Shown: positions 577 to 29,889 of the stretch, piece by piece
Layout of the letters: each line of letters opens with the position of its first letter
Numbering within the stretch: position 1 is the stretch's first letter
Assembly (NCBI RefSeq): GCF_003287935.1
Contig: NZ_CP030287.1
Span: 3,934,267-3,998,266, forward strand
DNA: 64,000 nucleotides
Source of the DNA: Streptomyces sp. ICC1
Lineage (GTDB): Bacteria > Actinomycetota > Actinomycetes > Streptomycetales > Streptomycetaceae
Direction of reading: 5' to 3'
Notes under the pieces: generated by a model
What the model saw: the letters and a program-made list of their open reading frames with translations, nothing else
Told to the model about the DNA's origin: nothing
Databases searched by the model: none
Translations under genes and position numbers: made by a program

Positions 577-641
577 GCATTCGACGGGGTGGTCCTGGGA
601 CAAGAGGCCACCTGCAGCCCCGCTCATCCCGCAGGAGCATC

Positions 642-5843: not shown

Positions 5844-5862
5844 GGGCAGGCAGCTCTCCACG

Positions 5863-5891
5863 GGGCCCGGGCGCGGTGCGCGCCCGGGCCC
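5863..5891 (+). terminator. Terminator of the rex-hemACD operon
   Basis: A perfect 13-bp GC-rich stem (5863-5875 with 5879-5891) and a GTG loop, 19 bases after the hemD stop. There is no clear T-tract, as is common in Streptomyces. The next gene starts only 17 bases later, so read-through or a separate promoter inside the hairpin region is possible. Confidence 0.75.
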
Positions 5892-5908
5892 TGTGGCATG
5901 TTCGGGGC

Positions 5909-7289
5909 ATGACGGCACTGGGGGAAGCGGCACGGGCGGGCGACGCTGAGGCGGTACGGGAACTGCTGCGGGAGGGCGCCGAACCCGACGCGGTGGACGC
6001 GCGGGGCCTGCCGCCGCTGTGCGCGGCGGTGGCGGCGTACGCGCACGAGGCGGCCGATCTGCTGGTGGAGGCCGGCGCGGACCCGGACCGGGTGCTGCCG
6101 GACGGTACGACCCCGCTGCTGCGGGCCCGTCGAGAGCGGCTCCCCGGCGGTGGTCCGCGCGCTGCTGTGGTCCAGGGACCTCCCCGACCCGGCGGAGCGG
6201 CTGCCGGAGGCGGAGCGGGCACGGCTGCTGGACGCGGCCCGGCACTGGTACGGGGCGGGCGCGGAGGCGGAGCTGCGGCGCCGGACGGGTGCTGCGGGCC
6301 CGGCCGAGACCGCGACGGTGGAGGACGAGTGGTGCCAGGTCGAGGAGATCACGCTCGGCGGGCTGACGGTACGCGCGGGACACGGCGCCGTACTGACCAC
6401 CCTGGAGGCGCTGTTCGGCGTCCCGGTCCCCCTGGAGGAACTGGTCGCCCGCGCCGTCCGGCACACCGAATCGCACGTGGACTGGTCCGCGGCCGGCAGA
6501 CGGCTCGAGGCCCGGCTCGCGGAGGGCAGCCGGGAGGTCGTGACGGCTCTGCGGCACCACCCGTCCCCCGTCCACCGCCGCTTCGCCGCCGACTGGCTGG
6601 TGACCGTGCAGTGGCGCCTCAAGGCCGAGGAGTACCCGTACGACGCGGAGGACCGGGAGCTCCTCGCCGCCTGGGCGGACGTGGAGCCGGACCCCGAGGT
6701 CCTCGCGGCGGTGCTGTGGGCCATCACCGAACACGACGTGGGGCACCCGCGGCTGGAGTCCATCGGCCTGAGGTACGCCGTCCACCCGGACCCCCGGGTG
6801 CGCATGCGGTCGGTGTACTGCATGGGCTGGTCCGACGGGCCGTTCACGGCCGCGGAGCGCGGGGCCCTGGAGCTCCTGGCGGCCGACCCCGACGACGAGG
6901 TGCGGTTCTGCGCCGTCCTGAGCCTGCTGGCGGCGGGACAGGACGTGGACGCCCTGCACGGTGTGGTCCGCGACCTGGTCCGCGACCCGCACAGCCCGAT
7001 GCGGCTGGCGGCCGCGGACAGCATGGCGGAGTCCGCCGACCGCACGGCCGACGCCACGGACCTGCTGCTGTCCCTGCTGGACGCGGGCGAGCAGCTGACC
7101 CGCCTGGTCGGCGCCTACGGGCTGGCCCTGCGGGACCATCCGGGCACCCCGGAGGCGTACGCGCGGGCGGAGGAACTCGGCCCGTTCTTCACGCCCGACC
7201 ACCGGGTGAACGCGCTCTGGAGCTGGCAGGAGCGCAACGACCCCGCCCGGGGCGCCGCCGGTGCACGGTACCCAGACGGCACTGAGTAG
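5909..7289 (+). pseudogene. Ankyrin/HEAT-type repeat protein, frameshifted
   Basis: From ATG 5909 the frame encodes ankyrin repeats (LGEAARAGDAEAVRELLREG, then PLCAAVAAYAHEAADLLVEAGADP). At 6126-6128 a CCC run appears to carry one C too many: removing it restores the ankyrin continuation LLRAVESGSPAVVRALL and leads without a break into the +1 frame that runs to 7289. That frame encodes helical HEAT-like repeats (DEVRFCAVLSLLAAGQDVDAL, SPMRLAAADSMAESAD). The intact protein would be about 459 residues, cytoplasmic, and a protein-interaction scaffold. The frameshift may be a sequencing error or a real mutation. Function unknown. Confidence 0.75.
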
Positions 7290-7333
7290 CCGAGCGGGTA
7301 CCGGCGGGCGGGCGGCCCGAGTTGAGTGGTCCC

Positions 7334-7699
7334 ATGACCGCCCACGACCTCGCCCGCAACCCCGACGCCGACCGGGACCGCCGGGCCTACATCGCCCCGC
7401 TGGCCTCCACCCTGCTGACGCTGCCGCTCGCGTTCCTGTCCCTGCTGTACGCGGGGCTGTCGCCGATGGCCTGCGACTCCTGCGCCACGGAGGCCGCCCA
7501 CGCCTTCGACGCGAGCTTCGAGACCGCCTGGCCGGTGTTCTGGGTCGGCCTGCTGGGCACGCTGGCCCTGCTGGTGTGGTGCTGGGCCCTCCCGTGGCGG
7601 ACCGGCAACGCCGCCCGCCGCGTCGGCATCGCGCTCGCCGCGCCCGCGCTGGTGCTCCTGAACGCGGCGGTGTTCTGGGCCCTGCTGGACCTGCCGTAG
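7334..7699 (+). CDS. Small integral membrane protein, unknown function
   Basis: A 121-residue protein with a short charged N-terminus and three predicted membrane segments: about residues 22-42 (LASTLLTLPLAFLSLLYAGL), 66-86 (PVFWVGLLGTLALLVWCWAL) and 96-117 (IALAAPALVLLNAAVFWALL). A CDSC pair sits in the loop after the first segment (PMACDSCATEA) and could be a disulfide or metal site facing outward. ATG 7334 is chosen over the in-frame GTG 7322, which has no better ribosome site. No family recognised. Confidence 0.65.
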   Translation: MTAHDLARNPDADRDRRAYIAPLASTLLTLPLAFLSLLYAGLSPMACDSCATEAAHAFDASFETAWPVFWVGLLGTLALLVWCWALPWRTGNAARRVGIALAAPALVLLNAAVFWALLDLP

Positions 7700-7795
7700 G
7701 ACCCCGCCGGGCCTCGGGACCGGGGCCCGCCCTCCCGGCGGCAGCGCCTAGGCTTGGCAGCGACTGCTGTCGAAGCGCGAAGAGGCGACCAGAAG

Positions 7796-8797
7796 ATGAG
7801 CACGTACGGATCCTTCCCCGGCTCGCGGCCCCGCCGGCTGCGCACCACCCCGGCGATGCGGAGGATGGTCGCGGAGACCAGGCTGCACCCCTCGGACCTG
7901 ATCCTCCCGGCCTTCGTGCGGGAGGGGATCTCGGAGCCGCTCGCCATCTCGGCGATGCCGGGCGTGGTCCAGCACACCCGGGACACGCTGCGGAAGGCCG
8001 CCGTGGAGGCGGTCGCGGCGGGCGTCTCGGGGATCATGCTGTTCGGGGTCCCGGCGGACGAGAACAAGGACGCGCGGGGCACGGCGGGCACCGAGCCGGA
8101 CGGGATCCTGCAGCTCGCGATCCGCGACGTGAAGGCCGAGGTCGGGGACGAGCTCGTCATCATGTCGGACCTCTGCCTCGACGAGTACACCGACCACGGG
8201 CACTGCGGGGTCCTGGACGAGCACGGGCGCGTCGACAACGACGCGACGCTGGAGCGCTACGCCGAGATGGCGCAGGTCCAGGCCGACGCGGGCGTCCACG
8301 TGGTCGGCCCCAGCGGGATGATGGACGGCCAGGTCGGCGTCGTCCGCGACGCGCTGGACGAGACGGGCCACGAGGACGTCTCCATCCTCGCGTACACGGC
8401 GAAGTACTCCTCCGCCTTCTACGGCCCCTTCCGCGAGGCCGTCGCCTCCTCGCTCCAGGGCGACCGCAAGACGTACCAGCAGGACCCGGCGAACGCCCGC
8501 GAGTCGCTGCGCGAGCTCGCCCTCGACCTGGAGGAGGGTGCGGACATGGTCATGGTCAAGCCGGCCGGTCCCTACCTCGACATCCTGTACCGGGTCGCGC
8601 AGGCGGTCGACGTGCCGGTGGCGGCGTACCAGATCAGCGGCGAGTTCGCGATGATCGAGGCGGCGGCGGAGAAGGGCTGGATCGAGCGAGACCGGGCCAT
8701 CCTGGAGACGCTGCTCGGCATCAAGCGCGCGGGCGCGGACACGATCCTGACGTACTGGGCGACGGAGGTCGCGGGCTGGCTCCGCGCGGAGCGCTGA
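7796..8797 (+). CDS. hemB: Delta-aminolevulinic acid dehydratase (porphobilinogen synthase)
   Basis: Condenses two 5-aminolevulinates to porphobilinogen, the step between HemA/HemL and HemC. The protein is 333 residues, normal for the family. It has the Schiff-base lysine K255 ([12 protein letters not shown]), the second active-site lysine in [14 protein letters not shown], and the metal loop [15 protein letters not shown]. That loop keeps two of the three cysteines of the zinc-type enzymes, with Asp in place of the third. ATG 7796 follows a GAAGAGGCGACC ribosome site. The gene is separate from the rex-hemACD operon, and no Rex-type operator was seen directly upstream. Confidence 0.95.
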
Positions 8798-8815
8798 CGC
8801 TGGCCGCTGGGTTTG

Positions 8816-8848
8816 GGGGGCGGTGCGGGGCGGGACGCAGCCGCCCCC
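8816..8848 (+). terminator. Possible hemB terminator
   Basis: GGGGGCGG (8816-8823) can pair with CCGCCCCC (8841-8848) across a 17-base G-rich loop, 19 bases after the hemB stop. There is no T-tract. The stem is short, so this is a weak call. Confidence 0.35.
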
Positions 8849-8921
8849 GTGCCGCCGACTCGCGTCGTGTCCCGCCCAGGCGCACGCTGGAAGCAGGGTG
8901 AACCCCTGGAGGTGATGCACC

Positions 8922-9194
8922 ATGTCCACACTCGTCGGGTGGCATGCGGAGCTCGAATTCACCGAGGAGGGCCACCGCACCAGTGCGGCGGCCCTGGTAA
9001 GGCTCGGGGACGGCTCCGAGATCAGAGCGCACGGCTACGCCATGCGCCACCCCTCCGACCCGGAGCAGCTGAGGGTCGGGGAAGAGATCGCGGGTGCTCG
9101 CGCGCTCATGGATCTCGCGTCGCAGATGCTGCAGAAGGCCCACTCCGAGATCGACGAGGCGACGGGCCGCCATTCCTACCCGCTCAATCGCTGA
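8922..9194 (+). CDS. DUF1876 domain-containing protein
   Basis: A 90-residue soluble protein of the actinobacterial DUF1876 family (start STLVGWHAELEFTEEGHRTSAAALVRLGDG, with RHPSDPEQLRVGEEIAGARAL in the middle). Its role is unknown; members are small and often found near stress or dsRBD-fold-like genes. ATG 8922 has GGAGG 12 bases upstream (CTGGAGGTGATGCACC). It stands alone between hemB and a convergent ABC transporter. Confidence 0.85.
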   Translation: MSTLVGWHAELEFTEEGHRTSAAALVRLGDGSEIRAHGYAMRHPSDPEQLRVGEEIAGARALMDLASQMLQKAHSEIDEATGRHSYPLNR

Positions 9195-9232
9195 GCGCAC
9201 GGCCGACCCCTGGCCGCCCCCACCCGGAGCCG

Positions 9233-10003
9233 TCAGCGGGTCCGGCCGCGGAACAGGGTGCCCGCCAAGGCCACGGCCACCGCCGTGATGCCCGCGCACC
9301 AGGCCAGCGCCACCCAGGGGGAGTTCCCCGCCGACTGCGCCAGCAGCAGTGCGCGCAGGGATTCGATGACCGGGGTCAGCGGCTGGTTCTCGGCGAAGCC
9401 GTGCAGCCAGGTCGGCATCGTGTGGATCGGGACGAACGCGCTGGACGGGTACGGCAGGAACATCATCAGGAACGTGAAACCGCCAGCCGCCTCGGGGGAC
9501 TTGGCGAGCAGACCGAGTACGGCGGCAAGCCACGAGATCGCCGTGATGTACGCGAGCAGCAGTCCGGCCGCAGCGAGGAAGGCGAGCGGTCCGGCCTGGG
9601 GTCGGAAGCCGATGGCGAGGGCGACGGCGAGGACCAGGACGGTGGACAGCAGGTTGCGCAGGACGGAGGCCGTGACGTGGGCGGCCAGGATCGGGACGCC
9701 TCCGATGTCCAGGGAGCGGAAGCGGTCGACGATCCCGTTCTTCATGTCGTCCGCGACGCTGACGGCGGTGCTCGCCGCGCCGAAGCCCGCGCAGAGGAGC
9801 ATGGCGCCGGGGACGACGTACGTCACGTACTCGGTCCCGGTGTCGATGGCGCCGCCGAAGAAGTAGACGAAGATCAGCATCAGCATCACGGGGAGCATCA
9901 GCGCGGCGATCAGCGCGTCCGGGCTGCGGCGGCTGATGCGCAGGCTGCGGCCGGCCAGCGCGAGCGCGGCGGTGGGGGCAGTCATCGTGGTCGTCATGGT
10001 CAT
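9233..10003 (-). CDS. ABC-2 type transporter permease (drug-export type)
   Basis: A 256-residue inner-membrane permease with six predicted helices (LIAALMLPVMLMLIFVYFF, VVPGAMLLCAGFGAASTAV, VLRNLLSTVLVLAVALAIGF, LLAYITAISWLAAVLGLLA, FLMMFLPYPSSAFVP and a C-terminal helix). It is related to the DrrB family that exports antibiotics. Its ATG at 10003 overlaps the stop of the ATPase gene (ATGA), so the two form one coupled exporter. The substrate is unknown. Expression is probably controlled by the divergent TetR gene at 11037. Confidence 0.88.
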   Translation of the reverse strand: MTMTTTMTAPTAALALAGRSLRISRRSPDALIAALMLPVMLMLIFVYFFGGAIDTGTEYVTYVVPGAMLLCAGFGAASTAVSVADDMKNGIVDRFRSLDIGGVPILAAHVTASVLRNLLSTVLVLAVALAIGFRPQAGPLAFLAAAGLLLAYITAISWLAAVLGLLAKSPEAAGGFTFLMMFLPYPSSAFVPIHTMPTWLHGFAENQPLTPVIESLRALLLAQSAGNSPWVALAWCAGITAVAVALAGTLFRGRTR

Positions 10004-10929
10004 CGGGCAGCTCCCGTCAGGGCGAGGAACACGTCGTCGAGGGTGGCGGTGCGCACCGCGAAGCGGGCGATGTCGGTGCAGTCCGGGTCGAGTTCGTCGA
10101 GCAGGGCACGGACGTGGGCCGCGCTGCCGTCGGTGGGCAGGCCCAGGGTGAGCTCGTCCGGTACGAGGTGCACCGCGCGCGGGGTCAGTGCGTCGTAGGC
10201 GGCCCGGTGGGTCAGGGTCAGGTCGAGGCGGTGGCCCGCGACCCGCGACTTGAGCGCGGCGGGCGTGCCCTCGGCGACGATCCGCCCCTCGGCCAGGACG
10301 ACGACGCGGTCGGCGAGCCGGTCGGCCTCCTCCAGGTACTGGGTGGTGAGCAGCACGGTCGTGCCGTCCGCGCGCAGTTCCCGTACGAGGTCCCACAGGT
10401 CCTGGCGGCTGCGCGGGTCGAGTCCGGTCGTCGGCTCGTCCAGGAAGATCACCTCCGGCTGCGAGACCAGGCTTGCGGCGAGGTCGAGGCGCCGTCGCAT
10501 GCCTCCCGAGTACGTCTTCGCCGTGCGCGCGGCGGCCTCGGCGAGTCCGAAGCGCTCCAGCAGTTCGTCGGCCCGGGCCCGCGCCGCGCGCGGGCGCAGT
10601 CCGCGCAGGCGGCCCATCATGCGCAGCATCTCGGCGCCGGTCTGGAGTTCGTCGACGGCCGCGAACTGCCCGGTGAGGCTGATGGAGCGGCGTACGAGGG
10701 CCCGTGCGGACGCGGTGTCGTGGCCCGCGACGCGGGCGGTCCCGGAGTCGGGCTCGGTGAGGGTCGCCAAGATGCGGACGGTGGTGGTCTTCCCGGCGCC
10801 GTTGGGGCCGAGGAGGGCGAGGACGCTGCCGCGCGGGACGGCGAGGTCGATGCCGTCGAGGACGCGCAGGGCGCCGTAGGACTTGGTCAGGGCGGTGGCG
10901 TGGATGCCGAGGTCGTCGTGCGTGGTCAT
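10000..10929 (-). CDS. ABC transporter ATP-binding protein (DrrA-like)
   Basis: A 309-residue ATPase with Walker A (LLGPNGAGKTTT), the signature motif (YSGGMRRRLDLAASL), Walker B (VIFLDEPTTGLD) and the C-terminal DrrA-type extension. Together with the downstream permease it would form a drug or lipid exporter. The GTG/ATG start at 10929 faces the TetR gene across about 107 bases that contain inverted GCGTA/TACGC repeats, a likely shared operator. Confidence 0.92.
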   Translation of the reverse strand: MTTHDDLGIHATALTKSYGALRVLDGIDLAVPRGSVLALLGPNGAGKTTTVRILATLTEPDSGTARVAGHDTASARALVRRSISLTGQFAAVDELQTGAEMLRMMGRLRGLRPRAARARADELLERFGLAEAAARTAKTYSGGMRRRLDLAASLVSQPEVIFLDEPTTGLDPRSRQDLWDLVRELRADGTTVLLTTQYLEEADRLADRVVVLAEGRIVAEGTPAALKSRVAGHRLDLTLTHRAAYDALTPRAVHLVPDELTLGLPTDGSAAHVRALLDELDPDCTDIARFAVRTATLDDVFLALTGAAR

Positions 10930-10955
10930 CGCGGACCGCGCTCCCTTCTGGCTTC

Positions 10956-10983
10956 TGCGTATGGGTTACGCGCTACTGCGTAA
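10956..10983. promoter_or_regulatory. Candidate TetR operator between exporter and regulator
   Basis: TTACGC (10966-10971) and GCGTAA (10978-10983) form an inverted repeat with a 6-base spacer. A further GCGTA at 10956-10960 pairs with the same TACGC at 10967-10971. The position between divergent TetR and ABC genes suggests it is the regulator's binding site. Inferred from position and symmetry. Confidence 0.5.
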
Positions 10984-11036
10984 GTAATACACAGAACTAG
11001 GATGTGGGTCAACGACTCATCAGGGAGGAGGCGGCG

Positions 11037-11807
11037 ATGGCGAAGGACCCCGACGGGGAAACCGGGCTCCCGGCGAGCCTGGAGATGGCCTGGGGTCTGC
11101 GCGAACGCCCCGGCAAGGGCCCCCGCCCCACCCTCACGCTCCCCCGGATCGTGGACGCCGCCGTCGCGCTCGCCGCGGGGGAGGGGATGGACGCCGTCTC
11201 CATGGGCCGGGTGGCCAAGGAACTGGGCGTCTCGACGATGTCCCTCTACCGGTACGTCACGGCGAAGGAAGAGCTGTACATCCTGATGGCCGACGCGGGC
11301 GTCGGCACCCCGCCGCCCGAGCCGTCCGGCGGCGGGGAGGGGATGGGCTGGCGGGAGCTGCTGTCGCAGTGGGCGTACGCGCAGCGGACCGTCCTGATGA
11401 TGAACACCTGGATCCTGCGCATCCCGATCACCGGGGCGCCGGTCAGCCCGAACCAGCTCGCCTGGATGGAACGCGGGCTCGCGGCGATGGCCGGGACCGC
11501 CCTGCGGGAGAGCGAGAAGGTCTCGGCGATCGTCCTCATCGGGGGCCTGGTCCGCAACGAGGCGACGATGGCCGCGGACATGATGGACGCCATCGTGAAG
11601 TCCGGCGTCGCACCGGACCAGGTGCTGGGCCAGTACGTGCGCACGCTGCGGCTGATGACCGGCCCGGACACGCACCCGGCGGTGACCCGGCTGCTGGAGT
11701 CCGACGCGTTCACGGGCTCGGACGAGCCGGACTTCCAGTTCCGCTTCGGCCTGAACCGCATTCTGGACGGCCTGGCCGCGCTGATCGGCGAGCGGTCCGC
11801 TCCGTGA
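11037..11807 (+). CDS. TetR family transcriptional regulator
   Basis: A 256-residue repressor. The N-terminal helix-turn-helix runs through about residues 35-80 (IVDAAVALAAGEGMDAVSMGRVAKELGVSTMSLYRYV), followed by a TetR_C-type ligand-binding domain (PNQLAWMERGLAAMAGTALRESEK). ATG 11037 has AGGGAGGAG just upstream; the in-frame GTG/ATG at 11004 lacks this. It is divergent from a drug-type ABC exporter and probably represses it until an inducer binds. Confidence 0.88.
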   Translation: MAKDPDGETGLPASLEMAWGLRERPGKGPRPTLTLPRIVDAAVALAAGEGMDAVSMGRVAKELGVSTMSLYRYVTAKEELYILMADAGVGTPPPEPSGGGEGMGWRELLSQWAYAQRTVLMMNTWILRIPITGAPVSPNQLAWMERGLAAMAGTALRESEKVSAIVLIGGLVRNEATMAADMMDAIVKSGVAPDQVLGQYVRTLRLMTGPDTHPAVTRLLESDAFTGSDEPDFQFRFGLNRILDGLAALIGERSAP

Positions 11808-11959
11808 GCCCTTGGGGCGGACGTGAGGGAGGCGCAGGAGCGGGCCGCCGCCCTCTACGGCAGCGACGGGGAGCTTGAGGGCGAGGCCGTGGCGGTCGGC
11901 AACGCTCCGCCGGCGTCCGAGCCCCAAAGCCCGCCGGCCCCGCCGCCGGCGCGACCGCT

Positions 11960-12430
11960 TCAGGCGCTGAGCCGGCCCGCCAGCCGGGTCATCGCCTCCC
12001 GGAGTTCGCGTTCCGCGCCCAGCGGGACGATCGCCGCGCGGGTCGGGACGCGGACGCCGCCCGTCAGGGCCACCCGGGTGCCGCCGCCCGGTTCCGGGGC
12101 GGCGGCCATGCCGATGATCAGGAAGCGGCTCTGGAGCCAGCACCAGCCCGGGCGCAGGACGCCGCGGAAGTGCGCGCGCAGACCGTATTTGCTGCGCGCC
12201 AGGGCCTCCACGCGGTCGCCCGTGACCCGGAGCACGCGCACGGTGCGCATGTCCGGCTGGAAGCGGCCGAACTCGCCCTCCAGGTCCGACATCACCGCCC
12301 AGACGGCCTCCACGGGGGCCGGGAGGACCCCTTCGACGACCCGGGCTCCCGGGACGCCGGCCGCCATGACGCGCAGGCGGGCGATCGAATCCATCTCGTA
12401 CGTCCTGTCGTATGCCCTCTCGTACGTCAT
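11960..12430 (-). CDS. SRPBCC-fold protein (polyketide cyclase/START-like)
   Basis: A 156-residue protein that reads like an SRPBCC domain: VVEGVLPAPVEAVWAVMSDLEGEFGRFQP near the N-terminus, beta strands in the middle and a C-terminal helix (ELREAMTRLAGRL). Such domains bind hydrophobic ligands in the cytoplasm. ATG 12430 overlaps the stop of the sigma-factor gene (ATGA), so it is the third gene of a coupled unit and may serve the same response. The 150 bases between its stop and the convergent TetR gene show no gene. Confidence 0.72.
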   Translation of the reverse strand: MTYERAYDRTYEMDSIARLRVMAAGVPGARVVEGVLPAPVEAVWAVMSDLEGEFGRFQPDMRTVRVLRVTGDRVEALARSKYGLRAHFRGVLRPGWCWLQSRFLIIGMAAAPEPGGGTRVALTGGVRVPTRAAIVPLGAERELREAMTRLAGRLSA

Positions 12431-12966
12431 GCGGACCACGCCTTCCGGAAGCTCGAACGGGCCCGGTGCAGCCGGGACTTGGCGGTGCCCGGCGGGACGC
12501 CGAGCAGGGCGGCGGCGGACTCCTCGTCGAGGCCTTCGACGTCCCGGAGTACGAGGACGGCCCGGTGAGCGGGGGAGAGGCGGGCCAGGACGTCCTCGAT
12601 GTCGACGGCGAGCTGCGGGTCGTCCGGGGCGGGTACGTCGGCCAGTTCGGCCGGGCGGTCGCGGGCCGCGCGCCGGGCGGTGCGGACGGCTTCGCGGACC
12701 GCGACGGACCGGACCCAGCCGTACAGGGTCTCCGGGTCCCGCAGGGTGCGCAGCGACCGAAAGACGTTGAGCAGGGCCTCCTGCGTGGCGTCCGGGCCGT
12801 CCGCGAGGGCGATCGGTACGCAGATCCGGGCGATGTACGGGGTCAGGTGGTCGAGGAGGTCGTGCAGCGCGAGGGTGTCTCCGCCCCGGGCCGCGCGCGC
12901 GAGGGCGACTCCCCGGGCGCGGGCGGCGGGGGTGAGGGGTCCCCTCGGCGGGGCCGGCGGGTTCAC
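12427..12966 (-). CDS. ECF-type RNA polymerase sigma factor
   Basis: A 179-residue sigma-70 family protein. Region 2 covers about residues 30-100 (DATQEALLNVFRSLRTLRD, LYGWVRSVAVREAVR), and region 4 is at the C-terminus (LSPAHRAVLVLRDVEGLDEESAAALLGVPPGTAKSRL). No zinc-finger anti-sigma gene is adjacent. The upstream partner is a four-helix membrane protein (DUF3995), which might act as the sensor. The GTG start at 12966 overlaps the upstream stop (GTGA). Confidence 0.88.
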   Translation of the reverse strand: MNPPAPPRGPLTPAARARGVALARAARGGDTLALHDLLDHLTPYIARICVPIALADGPDATQEALLNVFRSLRTLRDPETLYGWVRSVAVREAVRTARRAARDRPAELADVPAPDDPQLAVDIEDVLARLSPAHRAVLVLRDVEGLDEESAAALLGVPPGTAKSRLHRARSSFRKAWSA

Positions 12967-13394
12967 CGGGCTCGCGCCAGACGCGCCGCGGCCCAGCCGA
13001 AGCCGAGGCAGGCGGGGGTGTAGAGCGCGAGGTTGAGGGTGCGGAAGGGGCCGTCCGCCGGGCTGTCGAGGAGGCCGGCGGCCCAGCCCAGGCCCGCGAG
13101 GCCGCGTACGGCCAGACCGGCGGCGACGGCTGCCGTCACCAGGCGGGCGGGCCGCCCTCCCTGGCCCCGCGCGTGCGCGAGTACGGCGGCGGCCCCGGTC
13201 AGGGTGAGCGCGGCGAGCGGCAGGACGACGGGCGGCCCGAAGGACACCTCCGTGCCGAGCACGGCCAGCGACAGGGTCCGCTCGTCGGGGGCGGGCCAGG
13301 TCAGGCCGGTGGCCCAGTACAGGTGGACCAGCCCGTCGGTGGCGAGCAGCGCGGCGAGCGTCCGCCCGGTGCGCCTTCGCGTCGTGTCCTTCAT
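12963..13394 (-). CDS. DUF3995 membrane protein
   Basis: A 143-residue membrane protein with four predicted helices: LAALLATDGLVHLYWATGL, VVLPLAALTLTGAAAVLA, LVTAAVAAGLAVRGLAGLGW and LALYTPACLGFGWAAARLA. It matches the DUF3995 pattern, a family of unknown role. ATG 13394 is preferred to the upstream in-frame start at 13475, because the extra part lies in an inverted-repeat leader. It is the first gene of the DUF3995-sigma-SRPBCC unit and could modulate the sigma factor (inference). Confidence 0.75.
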   Translation of the reverse strand: MKDTTRRRTGRTLAALLATDGLVHLYWATGLTWPAPDERTLSLAVLGTEVSFGPPVVLPLAALTLTGAAAVLAHARGQGGRPARLVTAAVAAGLAVRGLAGLGWAAGLLDSPADGPFRTLNLALYTPACLGFGWAAARLARAR

Positions 13395-13436
13395 GTGTGC
13401 CCCCTCGGTGGTGAAACGCTCCGGCACACAGAGGAG

Positions 13437-13470
13437 GGGGCTCACAGGGGAGACGTTCCCTGTGAGCCCC
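13437..13470. promoter_or_regulatory. Large inverted repeat upstream of the sigma-factor unit
   Basis: GGGGCTCACAGGG (13437-13449) and CCCTGTGAGCCCC (13458-13470) are perfect 13-base complements around an 8-base loop, 43 bases upstream of the DUF3995 ATG. It could be an operator, a leader hairpin, or a terminator for whatever gene truly lies to the right. That region is unreliable because adapter sequence begins only 36 bases away. Confidence 0.6.
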
Positions 13471-13505
13471 GTCACGCGAGCGGGTGAGCGGCTGAGGGGG
13501 TGGGG

Positions 13506-13581
13506 CTGTCTTTTTTACACATCTCCGAGCCCACGAGACTAGGCATGCCCTCGTCTGGCGTTTTCTGTTTGAAAAAAAAAA
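13506..13581 (+). other. Illumina Nextera adapter, index and poly-A embedded in the assembly
   Basis: Bases 13506-13539 match the Nextera transposase read-through sequence (CTGTCTCTTATACACATCT followed by CCGAGCCCACGAGAC) at 32 of 34 positions. Bases 13540-13547 read TAGGCATG, which I recall as index N706. Bases 13548-13571 match the P7 flow-cell sequence at about 18 of 24 positions. A run of ten A follows at 13572-13581, as produced when a read runs past the end of its fragment. This is library sequence, not genome, so the join is probably an assembly artefact. Confidence 0.95.
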
Positions 13582-15602
13582 GCTGGGGTCGGGGCCATGG
13601 GAGGACACGGGGACTCCACGGTTCGGGGCTTCGGCGCGGCGCGCCGGATGAAGCCGAGGTAACTGCCTCCGGCGGCGATCGTCAGGAAGAACATCCCGGC
13701 GAACATCGGGAAGCTGAGGGCGTCGAAGGTGGCGGCGCTGACCAGGGCGACGAGGGCCGAGGCGAAGAAGGCCTGGCCGAGCTCGCGGTCGGACTCGCAG
13801 GCGGCGATTCTCCGGATGGCGCCGCCCTGGTGGATCCCGGTGAGGAACAGGGCCAGGAGCGCGACGAGGCCCAGCAGGCCCATTTCCGCCAGGGTCAGCA
13901 TGTACTGGTTGTCGGTGAAGAAGTAGAGGTCGGGGGTGAAGGTGCCCAGGCCCCGTCCGAACAGCGGGCGGTCCTCCAGGTAGGGGACGATCGCGCTGTA
14001 CTTGACGGTTCGGGCCTGGGTGCTGCTGTCGGAGTTCGACAGGAAGGACGCGAAGAGCGTGGTGATCGTGCCGATCAGCCCCGGTACGAGGACCTTGAAG
14101 ATCGCCACGGAACCCAGGAGCAGGCCGAAGGTGGTCCAGCGCCGCTGCGGCTTCCACCGCGGCACCATCACCAGGACGACGATCAGCGCGCCGATGATGG
14201 AGGTGCGCGACACCGTCAGCGGCAGGGCCCCGCCCATCAGGGCCACCGGTGCCCAGCGGCGCCACCGGGTCAGGTGCGCGCGGGCCGGATCGAAGGCCTG
14301 CTGCACGGCGAAGGGCAGCATCAGGGCGAGCATGCCGCCGAACTCCAGCGGCTGCGCCGTCGTCGAGCGCGGCCTGGTGAAGGCCCCCCGGTCGAGCGCG
14401 GTGATCTGGGCCACGCTCGACTGGAGCCCCGGGATGCTGATCTTCTCGGCGATGTTCGTGGCGGTGAAGAAGTCGTAGTAGCCGATGGCGGCCACCAGCG
14501 CCCCCATCACCACGGCCCGTCGCAGCAGGACGTCGAGGCGGGCCCGGTCCTGGATGCCGGCCGACACCAGCACCACGATCGAGACCCAGACGAGCAGTCC
14601 GATCAGCCCGCGGTCGGCCCCCAGCACCTCCTTGTGGGTACTGCCCCGGGAGGCGTTCCCGAGGTAGGAGGCGAGGACCGACACGGCCAGCAGCCACATC
14701 GCGATCCGGGGCAGCCGGGTGCCGTGAGCGGGCCGGATCCGGCCGGTCAGCCAGGTCGCGAGGTACCAGAACAGCCCCAGGATCGCGAACACGTTGGCCG
14801 GGGTGCCCACCCCTCCCAGCCCCGGAAGGGTGAGGTTCGAGGGGATGAAGAAGGCCAGCGCGAGATAGCCGGTGAGCAGCGCGGTGGCGTCCAGTTGCCG
14901 GGCCCTGGTCCGCCTGCGCACCCGCGCCGTCGCCCCGGCGGCCGCTCCGCCGGCTTCGGCGGCCCGCGCGGCTTCGACTGCTTCGCGCCGCCGGCGCCGG
15001 GACGCGAGCAGGCTCTCCGTCACGAAGGACAGGGTGAAGCCGGCGACCAGGCCGGCGATGAGGACGGCGAGCACCTGTTGGTAGCGGCTCTTGAGCTGGG
15101 GCTTGGGGGTCTGCGGGAGCACCACCGGGGCGGTCTGCACGAAGTAGGCGGGTTGTACCTTGGCCGCCGACTGGAGGGCGTTGAGCTGCTCCCCGGCGAA
15201 CGCGGTGAGCGTGCTGGTCTCCTTGAGCACCTTGGCCCGGTCGTTGCCCGTGACCGTTAACGTGAGCATGGGGCCCGAGGTGTTCGCGGCGAATCCGACG
15301 GTGTAGGGATCGGTGACGCCGAGCCCCTGCAGGTCCCGGGCCGCGTCGGCCCCCGACAGGGTCCTGATGAGCACGTCGGCGGTGACGACCAGCGAACCGC
15401 CCGCGTTGGAGATGGGGTTGCCGAAGGTCGGAGCCAGTTCCGCGACCGCCGAGGAGTCGAGCAGCGCCACCGAGCTCTGCGACTGGTAGGACACCGGAAC
15501 CGACTCGTACAGGTGCAGGCCGGCGAGGATTCCCATCATCGTCAGGGGCATCATCACGTACCAGCGGCGCCTCAACACGGCGCCTATCTCACCGATGTTC
15601 AC
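13539..15602 (-). CDS. Wzz-like chain-length domain fused to Wzy/O-antigen-ligase-like polymerase; 3' end artefactual
   Basis: The frame encodes 687 residues. Residues 1-215 resemble a polysaccharide co-polymerase (Wzz): a first helix at about 16-32, a periplasmic-type domain, then a second helix at about 175-198 followed by a basic stretch. Residues 240-680 hold about ten more helices and the loop DRPLFGRGLGTFTPD, typical of Wzy/WaaL glycan polymerases or ligases. The fused form would couple polymerisation with length control at the membrane. About the last 13 residues (FFFQTENARRGHA) and the TAG stop come from adapter and poly-A, so the true C-terminus is missing. It is divergent from a second Wzz-like gene. 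Confidence 0.8.
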   Translation of the reverse strand: MNIGEIGAVLRRRWYVMMPLTMMGILAGLHLYESVPVSYQSQSSVALLDSSAVAELAPTFGNPISNAGGSLVVTADVLIRTLSGADAARDLQGLGVTDPYTVGFAANTSGPMLTLTVTGNDRAKVLKETSTLTAFAGEQLNALQSAAKVQPAYFVQTAPVVLPQTPKPQLKSRYQQVLAVLIAGLVAGFTLSFVTESLLASRRRRREAVEAARAAEAGGAAAGATARVRRRTRARQLDATALLTGYLALAFFIPSNLTLPGLGGVGTPANVFAILGLFWYLATWLTGRIRPAHGTRLPRIAMWLLAVSVLASYLGNASRGSTHKEVLGADRGLIGLLVWVSIVVLVSAGIQDRARLDVLLRRAVVMGALVAAIGYYDFFTATNIAEKISIPGLQSSVAQITALDRGAFTRPRSTTAQPLEFGGMLALMLPFAVQQAFDPARAHLTRWRRWAPVALMGGALPLTVSRTSIIGALIVVLVMVPRWKPQRRWTTFGLLLGSVAIFKVLVPGLIGTITTLFASFLSNSDSSTQARTVKYSAIVPYLEDRPLFGRGLGTFTPDLYFFTDNQYMLTLAEMGLLGLVALLALFLTGIHQGGAIRRIAACESDRELGQAFFASALVALVSAATFDALSFPMFAGMFFLTIAAGGSYLGFIRRAAPKPRTVESPCPPMAPTPAFFFQTENARRGHA

Positions 15603-15682
15603 GAACGCCCCCCATGAGGGCCGGGAACCGATGGCGGGCCGACCCGCGTCCTGGGAAGATCGATCACGACGGAAGGAATCCT

Positions 15683-16372
15683 GTGTCGCCTGGTGAGTTG
15701 TTCCGCACGCTGCGCCGCCGCTGGTACGTCCTGGTGCTGGCGGCGGCGCTCGCGGCCGCCGGAGCCCTGCAGGTGCTCCGCCCCACCCAGACCTACGTGA
15801 GCACGGCGATCGTCGTGCTCAAGCCGCCGGTGACCGGCAACCAGCCCAACCAGCTCGCCAACCTGCAGCCGCCGCTGGCCGCGGTCTCCTACGCGGCGGT
15901 GCAGCAGTTGGACTCCCCGGACGGGGAGGCCGAGTTGCGCGCCGCGGGGGTGGAGGGCGAGTACCGGATGACACCGCGCAACAGCGGCACGAGCGTCACC
16001 CCCCGCTATCTGATCCCCTCGCTCCAGGTGCAGGCGGAGCACGTGGACCCCGTCGTGGCCGACCGCTCCGTCCTGAAGGTCGTCGAGGTCTACACGAAGC
16101 ACCTCTCGGACATGCAGGCCGAGCAGCGGATCCCGGCGGCGGCGCGGATGAGCGTGACCCTCCTCGTACCGCCGACCTCGGTCGCGCAGACCGGTACGAA
16201 GAGCCGTGGCCTGGCCGGGACGGCGCTGCTGGCCGTGGTCGGCGGAGTCGCGTGCACGCTGTGGACCGACCAGCTCCTGACACGCCGGAGCCGGAGCCGG
16301 CGCGAAAGCGCCGACGCCGGTCCGCAGGAGACGGCCGAAGGCCGTGTACCCGCGGCCGCGGCGGCCCGCTGA
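15683..16372 (+). CDS. Wzz-like polysaccharide co-polymerase/chain-length protein
   Basis: A 229-residue membrane protein. The N-terminus SPGELFRTLRRRWYVLVLAA places a first helix at about residues 15-35. An extracytoplasmic domain with VLKPPVTGNQPNQLANLQ follows, then a second helix near residue 185-205 and a short basic tail. This is the layout of Wzz/KpsE-like proteins that govern glycan length or export. It lacks a BY-kinase domain. GTG 15683 has GGAAGGA 5 bases upstream. It is transcribed away from the Wzz-Wzy fusion gene over a shared 80-base promoter region. Confidence 0.78.
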   Translation: MSPGELFRTLRRRWYVLVLAAALAAAGALQVLRPTQTYVSTAIVVLKPPVTGNQPNQLANLQPPLAAVSYAAVQQLDSPDGEAELRAAGVEGEYRMTPRNSGTSVTPRYLIPSLQVQAEHVDPVVADRSVLKVVEVYTKHLSDMQAEQRIPAAARMSVTLLVPPTSVAQTGTKSRGLAGTALLAVVGGVACTLWTDQLLTRRSRSRRESADAGPQETAEGRVPAAAAAR

Positions 16373-16387
16373 GGAAGCGGGCCGCCG
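16359..16387 (+). terminator. Hairpin terminator over the stop codon of the Wzz-like gene
   Basis: An 11-bp GC stem (16359-16369 with 16377-16387) whose 7-base loop contains the TGA stop at 16370-16372. It probably ends transcription from the left and separates it from the convergent glycosyltransferase gene. Confidence 0.65.
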
Positions 16388-16458
16388 GGCCGGGTGTGCC
16401 CCAACCGCGGGGCGGTGGTGCGGATGGTGCATGTGGTGCGGGTGGTGCGGAGAATTCA

Positions 16459-17505
16459 TCAAATCCCTCGGCGTTTCCAGGACTGCCACCAGAGCCACTC
16501 GCGCCCCCGGTCGGCGAAGGCCGAGAGCACCAGCGGCTGGAGGTACGGCATCACGCGTGCTCCGACCCGCCGGCGCCTGCGCAGCGCCCCGTACTCGGCG
16601 AGCTCGGTGTAGTCCGGCCGGCATTCGGCGGCGAAGGCCTCCAGCTCCTCGACCGGGACCACCCCGGTGCGCCCCCGGTCGTAGGCCCGGTACGCCCTGC
16701 GCAGGGCGTACCGGGCGAGCCGGGTGCGCGCCGCCGCCGACAGCCGGGCGGCCTCCGGGAGGAGGCCGCCGCACTTCTCCAGTACGGAGTCGAAGGCGAC
16801 GAGGCGCTGGCGCAGGTCGTCGAGCTGCCCGCCGAAGTCCGTGGTGGACATGTTGTTGCCGTGGACGCGGTAGAAGGCCTGGTCGGCCCCCCGGACGTAG
16901 CCCACGTCGGCGTGGGCCGCGAGCCGCATCCACATCTCGATGTCGCCCGCGTGCGGAAGCTCGGGGTCGTAGCCCCCGACCTTCCGCTGGAGGCTGGTGC
17001 GCACGACCACCTCGGGCGAGGTGATGCACCCGGTGCCCTCCCTGAAGCGCCGCTCCAGCCACCACCGCCCGGGGTAGACCACCGATCCGGTGGTCCGGGT
17101 GCGGGCCTCGGGCAGCGGCCCGCCGTGCTGGAACCGCAGCGGCCTGCCGTAGGCGAAGCCCGCCTCCGGGTGGGCGTCCAGCAGGGCCGCGGCGCGCACC
17201 AGGGCGCCGGGGACCAGCCGGTCGTCGGCCGAGAGCAGGGCCACGTAGTCCCCGTCGGCCCACTCCAGCAGGCCTTCGTTGTACGTGGCGATGTGACCCC
17301 GGTTGCGCTCGTGGACCCGGACCTCGATCCGGGGGTCGGCGGCCGCGAGGGCGCGCGCGACCTCCGCCGAGTCGTCGGGCGAGGCGTCGTCGATGATCAG
17401 TACCCGTACGTCGACGCCCTCCTGCTCGTCCAGCACGCTCTTGACGCAGTCCGCCAGGAAGTGGCCGTACTTGTAGCAGGGGATCACCACGCTGACGGTG
17501 CTCAC
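16459..17505 (-). CDS. Family 2 glycosyltransferase
   Basis: A 348-residue cytoplasmic GT-A enzyme. It starts STVSVVIPCYKYGHFLADCVKSV and has the nucleotide-sugar site IIDDASPD and the metal site LLSADDRL (DxD-like). A His/Asn-rich acceptor region (RVHGNNMSTTDFGGQ) follows, and the C-terminal 100 residues are helical. It would transfer a sugar during assembly of the surface polymer. The GTG start at 17505 overlaps the stop of the large secreted-protein gene (GTGA), so the two are co-translated. Confidence 0.9.
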   Translation of the reverse strand: MSTVSVVIPCYKYGHFLADCVKSVLDEQEGVDVRVLIIDDASPDDSAEVARALAAADPRIEVRVHERNRGHIATYNEGLLEWADGDYVALLSADDRLVPGALVRAAALLDAHPEAGFAYGRPLRFQHGGPLPEARTRTTGSVVYPGRWWLERRFREGTGCITSPEVVVRTSLQRKVGGYDPELPHAGDIEMWMRLAAHADVGYVRGADQAFYRVHGNNMSTTDFGGQLDDLRQRLVAFDSVLEKCGGLLPEAARLSAAARTRLARYALRRAYRAYDRGRTGVVPVEELEAFAAECRPDYTELAEYGALRRRRRVGARVMPYLQPLVLSAFADRGREWLWWQSWKRRGI

Positions 17506-20500
17506 TGGCCGGCCACCTCCGAGCCCTGCGCCGCGAGGCCCGACGGTGCCGTGGTGCTGAAGACCGGGCCGACCCAGTAGTTCACCGAGCCGAAGGTGTT
17601 CGTGGGGAAGACCGTGGCCGACCCGTACTTGTAGAGGCCGTTGGCACCGCCGCTGCCGTCGGCCGGAGCCACCAGCGGATAGGAGCGGTGCGCCGCCGTG
17701 AAGTAGCCGCCGTCCACCGAGTACTTGCCGTTCGGCGCGTGGTAGGAGGCCACGTAGGTGGTGCCCGCCGTGATGGGCACGGCGGTGGTGAAGTGGAGCT
17801 GCTGCCAGCCCGACAGGGTCTCGCTGCCGAAGGTTCCGGTGGCCAGCAGGGTGCCGTCCTGCGCCCAGAGGCTGCCGGTGTGGGTGCCGGTGTTGCCGGC
17901 GCCCTTGTAGAAGGTCACGCCGGTGACGTAGCCGCTGACGGTGGACTGGAAACGGGTGCCCAGTTCAACGGAGTTGGTGTCGTCCCCGACGTTGGCGGTG
18001 GTCGGTGTGGCGGCCGGACCCCACAGGGTGCAGGGGCAGTTCACCACCGGCGGGGTCGTGCTGGTGGTGAAGTTCCAGGTCACCGGCGCCGCCATGGCAT
18101 TGCCCCACAGGTCTTCGGCCTGCACCGAAGCCGTGTAGGTGGTGTTCAGCTGCAGTTCGGAGGACGGGGTGAAGGTGGCGCTGTTGGAGGCGTCGAGGCC
18201 CTTGCTGCCCGGGACGGTGACGCCGCCCGCATCCTTGAGCGTGAACACCAGGGTGTCGGCGTCCACGGCCGTGCTGAAGGTGGCCTTCACCGCCGCGGTG
18301 ATCGCGGTGCCGGTCGCCGCCGACTGCGGTGTGGTCGAGGTGACCGTGGGAGGCGTGGTGCTCGCGGTGGCGGTGTCCAGGACCGCGTCGACCCAGTAGT
18401 TGCTGCCGGACGAGGCGCTGGACGGGAACCCGCCGGTGCCGCTGTAGCGGTAGACGCCGTTGCCGCCGTCCGTTCCGCTCTTCAGCGCGGTGAGCGGGGC
18501 GAGCCCCGCTGCGGAGGAGGCGAAGGTGGTGTCGAAGGAGTACCCGCCGTTGGGGGCGAAGTACGAGGCGATGTACGTGGTGTTGGCCTTCACGGGGACC
18601 GGCGAGGAGAAGTTCAGCTGCTGCCAGCCGGACGCCGTCTCGTTGGTGAAGGTTCCCGTGGCCAGGCGCTGTCCGGAGCTGCTCCACAGGCTGCCGGTGT
18701 GGGTGCCGGTGTTGGCCGGCGACTTGTAGAAGCGGACGCCCGTGATCGAACCGGGGGCCGAGGAGCGGATCTTGGCGCCGAGCTCGACGGCGCTGCCGTC
18801 ACCGGCGTTGACCGTGCCCGGCACGGCCGAGGCCGGCCAGACGGTGCAGGGGCATTGCTGGGGTCCCACGGTCAGCGGCACGGTGGTGGTGGCGCCGATG
18901 TTGACGCTGTCGTCCACCGCGCGGACCTTGATCTGCGCGGCGCCGGGGACCGTCGGGGTCCACTTGTAGCTCCAGGACCCGACGCCCGTGGTGGCCTTCC
19001 AGGTGGTCCCGCCGTCGGTGGAGACCTCCACGCGGGCCACGACGCCGCCGCCGGTGTCGGCCGAGGTGCCGGTGATGGTCACCGGACGCAGCGCGGGCAC
19101 GGTGGCGTTCGCCGCGGGGCTGGTCACGGTGATGGTCGGGCCCGTGGTGTCCGTGGAGGCGGTGGCCGCCACCAGGTTGCTCTGCAGGGACTTGGGCTGG
19201 ACCCCCATGTCGGCGAAGATGTTCACCGTCGCCTGCTGCATCCGCTTGTCCTCGGTGACCACCGCGTCGTCCGGGTTGCCGGTCGGCATGTTGGTCAGGC
19301 CCCAGGACCACTGCACGGTGCCCGATCCGAAGACCAGGGCGTGCGAGGTCTGGTCCCGGAAGGCGACGAGGCTGTGCGTCGCGGTCCCGTTCCCGTAGGT
19401 GTTGCCGTAGTCCAGGCGGTACTTGCCGTCGTTGATGTCCACCGTGGTGGAGGACATCGCGATCTGCCCGGCCGGGCGCGCCGCGTCCTCCACGTCGCTG
19501 TCCCACTCGTAGCCGAGCGTGCCGACGGGGAAGGTGGCGGTCTGCGAGGGGGTCAGGTTGGCGACGGTGGTGTTGCGCCACAGCCGCATCTTCGCGTAGG
19601 CGCCGGGCACGGTGATCGCGTCGCTGCGGTAGCCGTTCACGCTGAACAGCGAGCCGGTCACCTGGTTCTGCGGCTGGAAGGGACGCCCGTTCGTGGCGCT
19701 GGCCGGGTCCATGAAGGTGCCCGTCCAGATCCCGCTCGGGTCGGGGATGCCGTTGGGCTGCGGGAAGGAGAGCTTGGTCTCCTTGTAGCAGACCAGCGTC
19801 CGGTTGGCCGTGTTGGCGCCGTCGATGCTGGGGGCGAGACGGGTCTTCCAGAAGACCTCGTTGCCCGCGAAGTACGTCTGGTTGACGCCCGCGCGGCGCG
19901 CGTTCAGGGCGTTCGTGAACTGATCCTGGGTCCAGTACTCGTCGTGCCCCGAGGACATGAACACCTTGTGGTTCTGGAGCTGGGCGGCGCCCTTGGTCGA
20001 CATGTCGATCCCGGACATGTAGCTGACGTCGTACCCGTTGCGCTCCAGCCAGGCGATCATCTGGTACTCGGACCCGTAGATCCCGTTCTCGCCGCCGATG
20101 TCCATCGGCCGGTTGTAACTGACCTCGTACGCGCGGCCGTCGGGCGCGGGCCCGGCTCCGTCGTAGAGGTCCTGGCCGCCGTAGTTGTTGTACGCCTGCC
20201 AGGTCTGGTCGGCGGTCTGCACCACGATGTCGGAGTGGCTGGAGTCGTTGCGGACCACGAACGGGTAGGGCATCACGCCGTTGCCGTCCGCCTGGTCGAA
20301 GTTGGCGATGTAGAGGCCCGAGACGGCGTCGGAGGGCACCGTCCACGTCGAGGTGACGGGCCAGTTCCCGCAGTCGACCAGCCCGGTGGTGGGCTTGGTG
20401 GTGCAGCTGTGCGGGCTGCCTCCCGCGGGGAAGTTCGCCGGGAAGGTCTGGGCCGCCTGCGCCGCGGTCGACATCAGGCGGGCCCCGTCACCCCCGTAGT

Positions 20501-20798
20501 GGCCCAGCCGGTAGACCGACACCTTGTACGCGGTCGGCGACTGGACCTTGAACTGCACGGTCTCACCCGCCTGGACGCTCATCTGGGCGCTGAAGCCCTT
20601 GATGTCGCCGTAGGCGCTGGGCGCGAACCAGTCGGACATCGGTGTGCCCGGCTTGGAGTTCTCGCACACGATCGCGTTCGTGCCGGGACCGCAGGGGTCC
20701 GCCGCGTCGGCCACCGCGAAGGGAGGTAAGACCGTGGCCGTGAGAGCCGCGACCGCGGTGAAGAGGCCGTACCGGAGCAACCTTGTCCGTCTGTTCAT
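17502..20798 (-). CDS. Large secreted protein: DMFase-like region, Ig-like and DUF4082-type repeats
   Basis: A 1098-residue exported protein. A signal peptide (residues 1-32, ending FAVADAADP) is followed by a 500-residue region resembling the N,N-dimethylformamidase large-subunit fold (SAYGDIKGFSAQMSVQAGE, YRLGHYGGDGARLM, VSYNRPMDIGGENG, SSGHDEYWTQDQF). Next come an Ig-like domain (TITVTSPAANATVPALRPV), a DUF4082-type module (ITGVRFYKSPANTGTHTGSLW), a Big_5-like domain, and a second DUF4082-type module ending near the C-terminus. The two modules each begin with a CPC-T-W motif. It is probably a wall- or glycan-associated factor of the polysaccharide locus. The enzymatic activity is unproven. 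Confidence 0.82.
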   Translation of the reverse strand: MNRRTRLLRYGLFTAVAALTATVLPPFAVADAADPCGPGTNAIVCENSKPGTPMSDWFAPSAYGDIKGFSAQMSVQAGETVQFKVQSPTAYKVSVYRLGHYGGDGARLMSTAAQAAQTFPANFPAGGSPHSCTTKPTTGLVDCGNWPVTSTWTVPSDAVSGLYIANFDQADGNGVMPYPFVVRNDSSHSDIVVQTADQTWQAYNNYGGQDLYDGAGPAPDGRAYEVSYNRPMDIGGENGIYGSEYQMIAWLERNGYDVSYMSGIDMSTKGAAQLQNHKVFMSSGHDEYWTQDQFTNALNARRAGVNQTYFAGNEVFWKTRLAPSIDGANTANRTLVCYKETKLSFPQPNGIPDPSGIWTGTFMDPASATNGRPFQPQNQVTGSLFSVNGYRSDAITVPGAYAKMRLWRNTTVANLTPSQTATFPVGTLGYEWDSDVEDAARPAGQIAMSSTTVDINDGKYRLDYGNTYGNGTATHSLVAFRDQTSHALVFGSGTVQWSWGLTNMPTGNPDDAVVTEDKRMQQATVNIFADMGVQPKSLQSNLVAATASTDTTGPTITVTSPAANATVPALRPVTITGTSADTGGGVVARVEVSTDGGTTWKATTGVGSWSYKWTPTVPGAAQIKVRAVDDSVNIGATTTVPLTVGPQQCPCTVWPASAVPGTVNAGDGSAVELGAKIRSSAPGSITGVRFYKSPANTGTHTGSLWSSSGQRLATGTFTNETASGWQQLNFSSPVPVKANTTYIASYFAPNGGYSFDTTFASSAAGLAPLTALKSGTDGGNGVYRYSGTGGFPSSASSGSNYWVDAVLDTATASTTPPTVTSTTPQSAATGTAITAAVKATFSTAVDADTLVFTLKDAGGVTVPGSKGLDASNSATFTPSSELQLNTTYTASVQAEDLWGNAMAAPVTWNFTTSTTPPVVNCPCTLWGPAATPTTANVGDDTNSVELGTRFQSTVSGYVTGVTFYKGAGNTGTHTGSLWAQDGTLLATGTFGSETLSGWQQLHFTTAVPITAGTTYVASYHAPNGKYSVDGGYFTAAHRSYPLVAPADGSGGANGLYKYGSATVFPTNTFGSVNYWVGPVFSTTAPSGLAAQGSEVAGQ

Positions 20799-20835
20799 CT
20801 GTACCTCTTTGTGTTTTGCGTCAGCACAGTGCTGG

Positions 20836-21951
20836 TCAGCGCAGGGCGTCGATGAGCGCGCCCACGACCCTCTGCTGGTCCGCGGCGGTGATCTGCGGGA
20901 AGAGCGGGAGGGAGAGCATCCGGTCGGCGGCGTCCTCGGCGTGCGGGAAGGCCCCGCGTCCGTGGCCGAGGTGGCCGAAGGCCGGCGTGAGGTGGACGGG
21001 GGCGGGATAGTGCACGCCGGCGCCGATGCCCTCGGCGTTCAGCTTGCCGACGACCGCGTCGCGGTCGGCGCCCCGGACCCGGACCACGTACAGGTGCCAC
21101 ACGTGGACGTTGCCCCTGTCCGTCACCGGCAGGGTCAGGCGTCCGTCGGCGGCGACATCGGCGAGCAGCTCGTCGTACCGGGCGGCGGCGGCGCGGCGGG
21201 CCGCGTTGCCGTCGGCCAGCCGGGCCAGCTTGGCGCGCAGCACGACGGCCTGCAGTCCGTCCAGGCGGCTGTTGAACCCGGCCACGTCGTGCCGGTACTT
21301 GGCGACGCCCCCGTGGTTGGCCAGCGCCCGGACCAGGTCGGCGGTCTCCTCGTCGTCGGTCACCACCGCGCCCGCGTCCCCGTACGCGCCCAGGTTCTTG
21401 CCCGGGTAGAAGCTGGTCGCGGCGATCCCGCCGGTGCCCGGGGAGCGGCCGCCGCGGGTGGCGCCCTGGCTCTGCGCGGCGTCCTCGACGAGCCTGACGT
21501 GCGAGGGCAGCAGTGCGGCCAGCTCGGCGGCGGGCGCGCACTGCCCGTACAGGTCGACGGGGACCACCGCGCGGGTGGCCTTGCCGACCGCGTCGAGCGC
21601 GGCCTGCGGGTCGATCAGCAGGGTGTCGGGGAGGCAGTCCACGAGGACCGGCCGGGCGCCGATGCGGGCCACGGCGCCGGCGGTGGCGACGAACGTGTTG
21701 GCCGGCAGCACGACCTCGTCGCCGACGCCCACCCCGCTGGCGCGCAGGGCCAGTTCCAGTGCGTCGGTGCCGTTGGCGACGCCGACGCAGTGGCCGACTC
21801 CGGCGAACTCGGCGTACTCGCGCTCGAAGGCGCGGACCTCCTCACCGCCGATGAAAGCAGTGCCGGCGAGCACCCGGTCGAAACCGGCGCGTATCTCCTC
21901 CGCGACCTCGGCGTGCGCCGCCTTCAGGTCGACGAGCGGTATCTGGTTCAT
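20836..21951 (-). CDS. DegT/DnrJ/EryC1/StrS sugar aminotransferase
   Basis: A 371-residue PLP enzyme. It opens IPLVDLKAAHAEVAEEIRAGFD and has the family motifs VGVANGTDALELAL, VEDAAQSQGA and the PLP lysine in SFYPGKNLGAYGDAGAVVT. Enzymes of this type transaminate keto-sugars on nucleotide diphosphates. ATG 21951 overlaps the stop of the acyltransferase gene (ATGA). With the second aminotransferase, the oxidoreductase and the acyltransferase nearby, it points to synthesis of an N-acylated amino sugar for the surface polymer. Confidence 0.92.
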   Translation of the reverse strand: MNQIPLVDLKAAHAEVAEEIRAGFDRVLAGTAFIGGEEVRAFEREYAEFAGVGHCVGVANGTDALELALRASGVGVGDEVVLPANTFVATAGAVARIGARPVLVDCLPDTLLIDPQAALDAVGKATRAVVPVDLYGQCAPAAELAALLPSHVRLVEDAAQSQGATRGGRSPGTGGIAATSFYPGKNLGAYGDAGAVVTDDEETADLVRALANHGGVAKYRHDVAGFNSRLDGLQAVVLRAKLARLADGNAARRAAAARYDELLADVAADGRLTLPVTDRGNVHVWHLYVVRVRGADRDAVVGKLNAEGIGAGVHYPAPVHLTPAFGHLGHGRGAFPHAEDAADRMLSLPLFPQITAADQQRVVGALIDALR

Positions 21952-24912: not shown

Positions 24913-25013
24913 CGCCCTGCCCCTACTGAGTCGGTCATGGTGTTACCCGCCGTGCCCGCCGCCGCGCTGTGCGCGATTGCGGGCACGAGGACTTCGTGAA
25001 CGGTGGACAGCGG

Positions 25014-29888: not shown

Positions 29889-29889
29889 C

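Follow-up and report, generated by a model that had tools for sequence, protein, structure and literature searches.

Three blocks of genes lie in the 64,000-nucleotide window analyzed here, which corresponds to positions 3,934,267 to 3,998,266 of the one contig (9,034,319 bases) of Streptomyces sp. ICC1. The first block runs from hemA and hemB to a DUF3995 gene, the second contains wzy and wzz, and the third carries a TerD-domain gene and suf genes. The first and second blocks are separated by 76 bases that resemble sequencing adapter, and the second passes into the third near 39.1 kb. Coordinates and the evidence for each feature are collected in Table 1.

Table 1. Features of the window, numbered from its first base
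Feature	Position	Strand	Evidence
End of left contig: hemA, hemB, ABC transporter, TetR, SRPBCC-like, sigma factor, DUF3995	1..13505		Collinear, with indels, with one ISL-43 contig to 13478
Nextera read-2-side transposon arm	13506..13539	+	32/34 bases match
i7 index TAGGCATG (N706)	13540..13547	+	8/8 exact, directly after arm
P7 flow-cell sequence with errors	13548..13571	+	18/24 bases match
Ten A beyond the fragment end	13572..13581	+	10/10
Wzy_C ORF, final 13 residues and stop adapter-derived	13539..15602	-	Pfam, ISL-43 comparison
Middle contig, about 25.5 kb: Wzy, Wzz, GT2, others	13582..39087		Collinear, with gaps, with ISL-43 contig C76 (219,853 bases)
TerD-domain ORF with artificial start	39043..39798	+	Pfam TerD
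Second join, 30 bases	39088..39117		ISL-43 C76 homology to 39087, C107 homology from 39118
Right contig: TerD, PhoX, sufB, sufC, sufS	39118..64000, on to about window-equivalent 64,411		Collinearity with ISL-43 and S. flavotricini

Sequencing adapter and a chimeric wzy reading frame

Across its whole length, the stretch from 13506 to 13581 matched the series produced by Nextera read-through (transposon arm, i7 index TAGGCATG, P7, and ten A), with 68 of 76 bases identical and no indel. A previous reading of the letters alone had reported the arm match, named the index as N706, and described a degraded P7 sequence followed by ten A; each of these elements was recovered with the values given in Table 1. 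When up to three mismatches were allowed, the arm was matched once in the 64-kb window and never in 100 shuffles. A chance match to adapter was rejected on this basis and on the agreement of the full series in order. The P7 segment was the top match to P7 on either strand of the window, with runners-up at 17 of 24 bases, so that P7 alone is not significant and draws its weight from its position in the adapter series. The ten A constitute the sole run of eight or more A or T within the window, the GC content of which ranges from 67 to 77% in 2-kb bins. That poly-A and not poly-G follows P7 presumably reflects four-colour chemistry. The arm corresponds to the sequence that one report (PMC3906532) gives for trimming Nextera XT data at read 1, and TAGGCATG is identified as N706 in two others (PMC7770539 and PMC7589761). 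The 76 bases are leftover sequencing adapter, an artefact without biological origin.

The adapter also supplies the end of a predicted protein. The Wzy ORF terminates with FFFQTENARRGHA and a stop codon, both encoded by the poly-A, P7, and index, giving a product of 687 residues compared with 692 in Streptomyces sp. ISL-43, whose tail differs; in nine other close relatives examined the protein ranged from 669 to 697 residues. Pfam searches of the ORF at 13539 to 15602 returned Wzy_C only. A Wzz match of 25.0 bits (cut-off, 25.5) was obtained for a separate gene on the opposite strand, at 15614 to 16372. Of the Wzz-Wzy gene with an adapter-derived end that had been described previously, the last 13 residues and stop codon hold, and the Wzz domain does not, as it belongs to this separate gene.

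Displaced neighbours on both sides of two joins

The genomes compared most closely, ISL-43 and Streptomyces flavotricini NGL1, belong to other species and are themselves drafts or scaffolds. The alignment with ISL-43 extended at 93% identity from 25560 down to 13582, the base directly after the poly-A, and the sequences to the left and right of the adapter were found on separate contigs in that strain. Positions 13479 to 13505 did not align to any sequence compared. To place this in a broader set of relatives, 72 loci collected by a scan with the Wzy protein were searched for neighbouring genes by tblastn (E value, 1e−5). Wzz was present in all 72 loci, GT2 (≥70% identity) in 70, and a DMFA-like protein in 69. 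None of six left-hand proteins (two ABC proteins, TetR, SRPBCC-like, sigma, and DUF3995) was detected in any of the 72 at this threshold; sequence beyond Wzy extended for at least 5 kb in 66 loci and was shorter in 6. At a loose threshold (E value up to 10), the top left-hand match among the 72 loci was to the sigma protein (31% identity; E value, 2.8e−4), which is read as a distant family match.

The sequence that follows wzy in ISL-43 could be located elsewhere in the same assembly, at 8,481,587 to 8,485,802 (91% identity), 4.5 Mb away. More of it was found on the other strand at 7,260,435 to 7,265,766 (93% identity), 3.3 Mb away. An adapter-like match at 7,265,810 lies 44 bases past the break of the 7.26-Mb piece, and no adapter was found at the ends of the 8.48-Mb piece. 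The continuation of the left side, as taken from ISL-43, was similarly identified at 1,438,803 to 1,441,592 (87%) and 1,428,796 to 1,435,868 (90%), 2.5 Mb from the window, with an adapter-like match at 1,441,684, 92 bases from this continuation. In S. flavotricini NGL1, where both sides can be placed on one scaffold, the left side's hem block maps to 4.16 Mb and the right side to 7.787 to 7.804 Mb, leaving the main blocks 3.6 Mb apart. The part of the left side closest to the join (12003 to 13475) had its top S. flavotricini match at 8.16 Mb (75%) and not with the hem block; this position is 0.36 Mb from the right block and still not adjacent to it. The same part shares a contig with the hem block in ISL-43, AP-93, and CB00455, the three remaining relatives searched.

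Gap filling can pull adapter-bearing reads into a gap, and the two sides could accordingly be true neighbours with adapter erroneously inserted into a short gap between them. This was rejected as very improbable, given that both true continuations lie elsewhere in the same assembly, that the arrangement occurs at none of the relatives' 72 loci, and that the main blocks are so distant in S. flavotricini. The sequence-only reading had called the genes on the two sides unrelated, proposed a probable false join marked by adapter, and suggested synteny with close relatives as a check. The flanks proved to be non-adjacent, and the false join is supported by the adapter, the break in the ISL-43 alignment at 13582, and the displaced neighbours. 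That reading was right but too narrow, having missed a pattern that involves the whole assembly as well as an adapterless join near 39.1 kb.

At this second join, the position of the matching sequence in S. flavotricini shifts: matches on the left, the last of them at 29888, lie at 7.79 Mb, and those on the right, the first of them at 39172, lie at 6.54 Mb. No adapter remnant was found from 39088 to 39117. The counterpart in ISL-43 of the TerD-domain ORF begins 582 bases ahead of the join, and the 5′ part of the gene was identified in the same assembly at 8,637,852 to 8,638,775 with 90% identity (other matches of the 5′ part, 65 to 77%), displaced 4.66 Mb from the remainder of the gene. The second false join cuts the TerD gene. 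As joins without adapter exist, both here and at the ends of the 8.48-Mb piece, adapter alone cannot be used to map the joins. Furthermore, hemA and hemB are located in the first piece of the window and sufB, sufC, and sufS in the third, so that an argument made previously from the separation of hem and suf loci crosses two joins.

Adapter remnants, piece lengths, and rRNA genes across the assembly

A 24-base piece of the P7-side arm was matched 30 times in the assembly with up to three mismatches (18 and 12 by strand; control, 0), and the 19-base mosaic end 162 times (74 and 88 by strand; control, 0 and 1). No mosaic-end match was exact and 3 had a single mismatch; 100 of the 162 were placed by position, a set that is complete up to two mismatches. 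Adapter sites were read at 62 positions, in stretches mostly chosen around the 24-base P7-side matches. The index consensus from 33 P7-side sites was TAGGCATG, with 9 exact copies, 17 within two mismatches, and 16 further off. P5-side adapter copies also occur in the assembly. Of 161 mosaic-end substitutions across the 62 sites read, 119 were from A or T to G or C, perhaps through read correction towards a GC-rich genome. At 7,255,626 to 7,255,713, a pair of adapter copies in facing orientation lies within about 90 bases, like two joined contig ends, and the piece to the right extends for 10.1 kb as far as 7,265,810, where another adapter-like match comes next.

The Nextera mosaic end originates from Tn5, and the stretch at 13506 could therefore be conceived of as real DNA of the organism, for example, a construct that had integrated or a mosaic end of the Tn5 type. 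It continues, however, in the order in which a sequencer would read them, through the read-2 arm, a sample index, P7, and poly-A; the index recurs elsewhere with differing errors, and P5-side copies are present. Real DNA was rejected on the strength of this series and of the recurring sample index, and its probability is negligible.

Adapter remnants were unevenly distributed. The last 220 kb of the assembly contained 36 adapter sites plus 6 N-runs, compared with 2 sites in the 224 kb that surround the window; the reversed control gave 0 for each. Within the final 140 kb, five N-runs had lengths of 47, 26, 39, 47, and 33 bases. Both of the 47-base runs precede poly-A, and 47 is the combined length of the arm remainder, index, and P7; a mosaic-end remnant was found ahead of one of these runs, and none was visible ahead of the other. 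It appears that better adapter copies were masked with N. No N was present in the other stretches of the assembly examined. Mosaic ends with up to two mismatches (n = 92) numbered 4, 2, 4, 3, 6, 3, 15, 21, and 34 in successive 1-Mb bins, the last reaching 9.03 Mb, a climb in density along the sequence with a KS P value of 5e−16. After merging, 87 seams remained, for which interval and position were negatively correlated (rho, −0.73; none of 10,000 permutations as low). The shortest seam intervals per Mb were 55, 198, 262, 92, 72, 202, 12.6, 7.1, and 0.6 kb and are not monotone, which adapterless joins can explain; strict order is not proved by these intervals.

Piece lengths around the window were compared with a prediction fixed beforehand from the 25.5-kb middle piece, which placed the start of the left contig near 3,922,1xx and the end of the right contig near window-equivalent 64,5xx. 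The left contig was found to be homologous to S. flavotricini from 3,922,251 onward, with the ISL-43 contig and CB00455 reaching only 3,923,5xx. Collinearity of the right contig stopped at 64,411 (ISL-43) and 64,410 (S. flavotricini), beyond which the sequences of both relatives continue. The three consecutive pieces are at least 25,521, then 25,506 to 25,536, and then 25,294 to 25,324 bases long, in agreement with the length-order prediction within about 100 to 150 bases. Strict length order was measured at these three contigs only, and given the uncertainty of the contig ends, the first two do not differ in length. The next adapter match, at 4,049,265, lies 50,588 bases onward, which is twice 25,294. 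The left contig begins just before a 5S gene identified with Rfam, and a position beside rRNA is a usual breaking place for short reads. At this contig start Rfam identified 5S only, as it did at the same place in S. flavotricini; the bases before the 5S gene are what we take to be the 3′ end of a 23S gene. An inverted repeat with arms of about 24 bases was observed at about 3,998,677 (window-equivalent 64,411), where the homology of the right contig ends.

False joins could also have resulted if the contigs had been placed in the order of a reference genome, or arbitrarily, instead of by length. In its favour, strict order by length was measured directly at three contigs only and is represented elsewhere by adapter density. 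It is nonetheless unlikely, since the pieces of the window correspond to 4.16, 7.79, and 6.54 Mb of S. flavotricini and so are out of its order, adapter density climbs steeply to the end of the sequence, and the lengths fell where the prediction had placed them. Ordering by reference is unsupported by these S. flavotricini positions.

Repeats were collapsed in the assembly as they are in short-read drafts, with a single 16S gene, located at 8.898 Mb. In a search that scored at most 10 candidates per genome, five single-contig congeners (G005, G007, G009, G012, and G014) had 6, 5, 6, 6, and 6 copies, respectively, and single-contig genomes from other genera (G026 and G033) had 3 and 4. Seven copies were found in G004 (5 contigs), and G010 (2 contigs) had two weak matches. 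The latter, at 6,244,398 and 2,479,896 of its second contig, scored only 443 and 282 bits, compared with about 1,590 in other genomes, so the rRNA genes of this congener may be error-rich. No 16S gene was found in 11 of the 25 genomes searched, and as each of these 11 is in at least 10 contigs, a low count goes with a short-read draft. Completeness of the assembly was 100 and contamination 1.19.

Origin of the record and its consequences

The account that follows starts from direct observations, namely, the adapter, the non-adjacency of its flanks, the places of their true neighbours, the recurrence, the single 16S gene, and the length order around the window. When a Nextera insert is shorter than the read, the sequencer would run into the arm, the i7 index, and P7 and then make A calls. 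An adapter tail that bears errors could escape trimming and lengthen the end of a contig. Draft contigs would subsequently have been ordered by falling length over the whole sequence and fused, no gap Ns being present at the joins checked; better adapter copies may later have been masked with N. Under such end-to-end joining of length-sorted contigs, 13505 and 13582 would be adjacent by chance. We regard it as nearly certain that adapter-tailed Illumina draft contigs were arranged from longest to shortest and fused end to end into one 9.03-Mb sequence. It is also highly likely, with slightly less assurance, that the single-contig 9.03-Mb genome is a disguised draft, probably made up of hundreds of Illumina contigs that were length-sorted and fused without gaps.

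Pseudomolecules can be made by concatenating draft contigs. The record resembles these in consisting of one sequence per genome, in having an order that is not that of the chromosome, and in its collapsed repeats, but it differs in being length-sorted and in lacking an N or linker spacer at the joins checked. The missing spacer and the length-sorted order make the record look finished. A literature search did not identify a description of a length-sorted concatenated record, which is weak evidence of absence. The adapter itself is the same as in Nextera read-through contamination, with an identical arm sequence followed here by index, P7, and A calls. Such contamination is described for reads in PMC3906532, whereas here it was found inside an assembled single-contig chromosome, at joins.

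The stretch itself holds no biology, and its importance lies in data quality. The record looks like a finished chromosome and represents its species in a genome set, and neither its completeness score nor its contamination score reveals the joins. Studies of gene order, operon calls, cluster boundaries, and chromosome evolution that use the record are wrong at each join. This window by itself contains a chimeric Wzy ORF and a TerD gene cut by a join. If the proposed origin is true, gene order across the joins would be meaningless, neighbourhoods and clusters that span them would be false, and chimeric join proteins may sit in databases. Three signs, error-bearing adapter remnants, rRNA copy number, and falling piece length, could provide a cheap screen for other disguised drafts.
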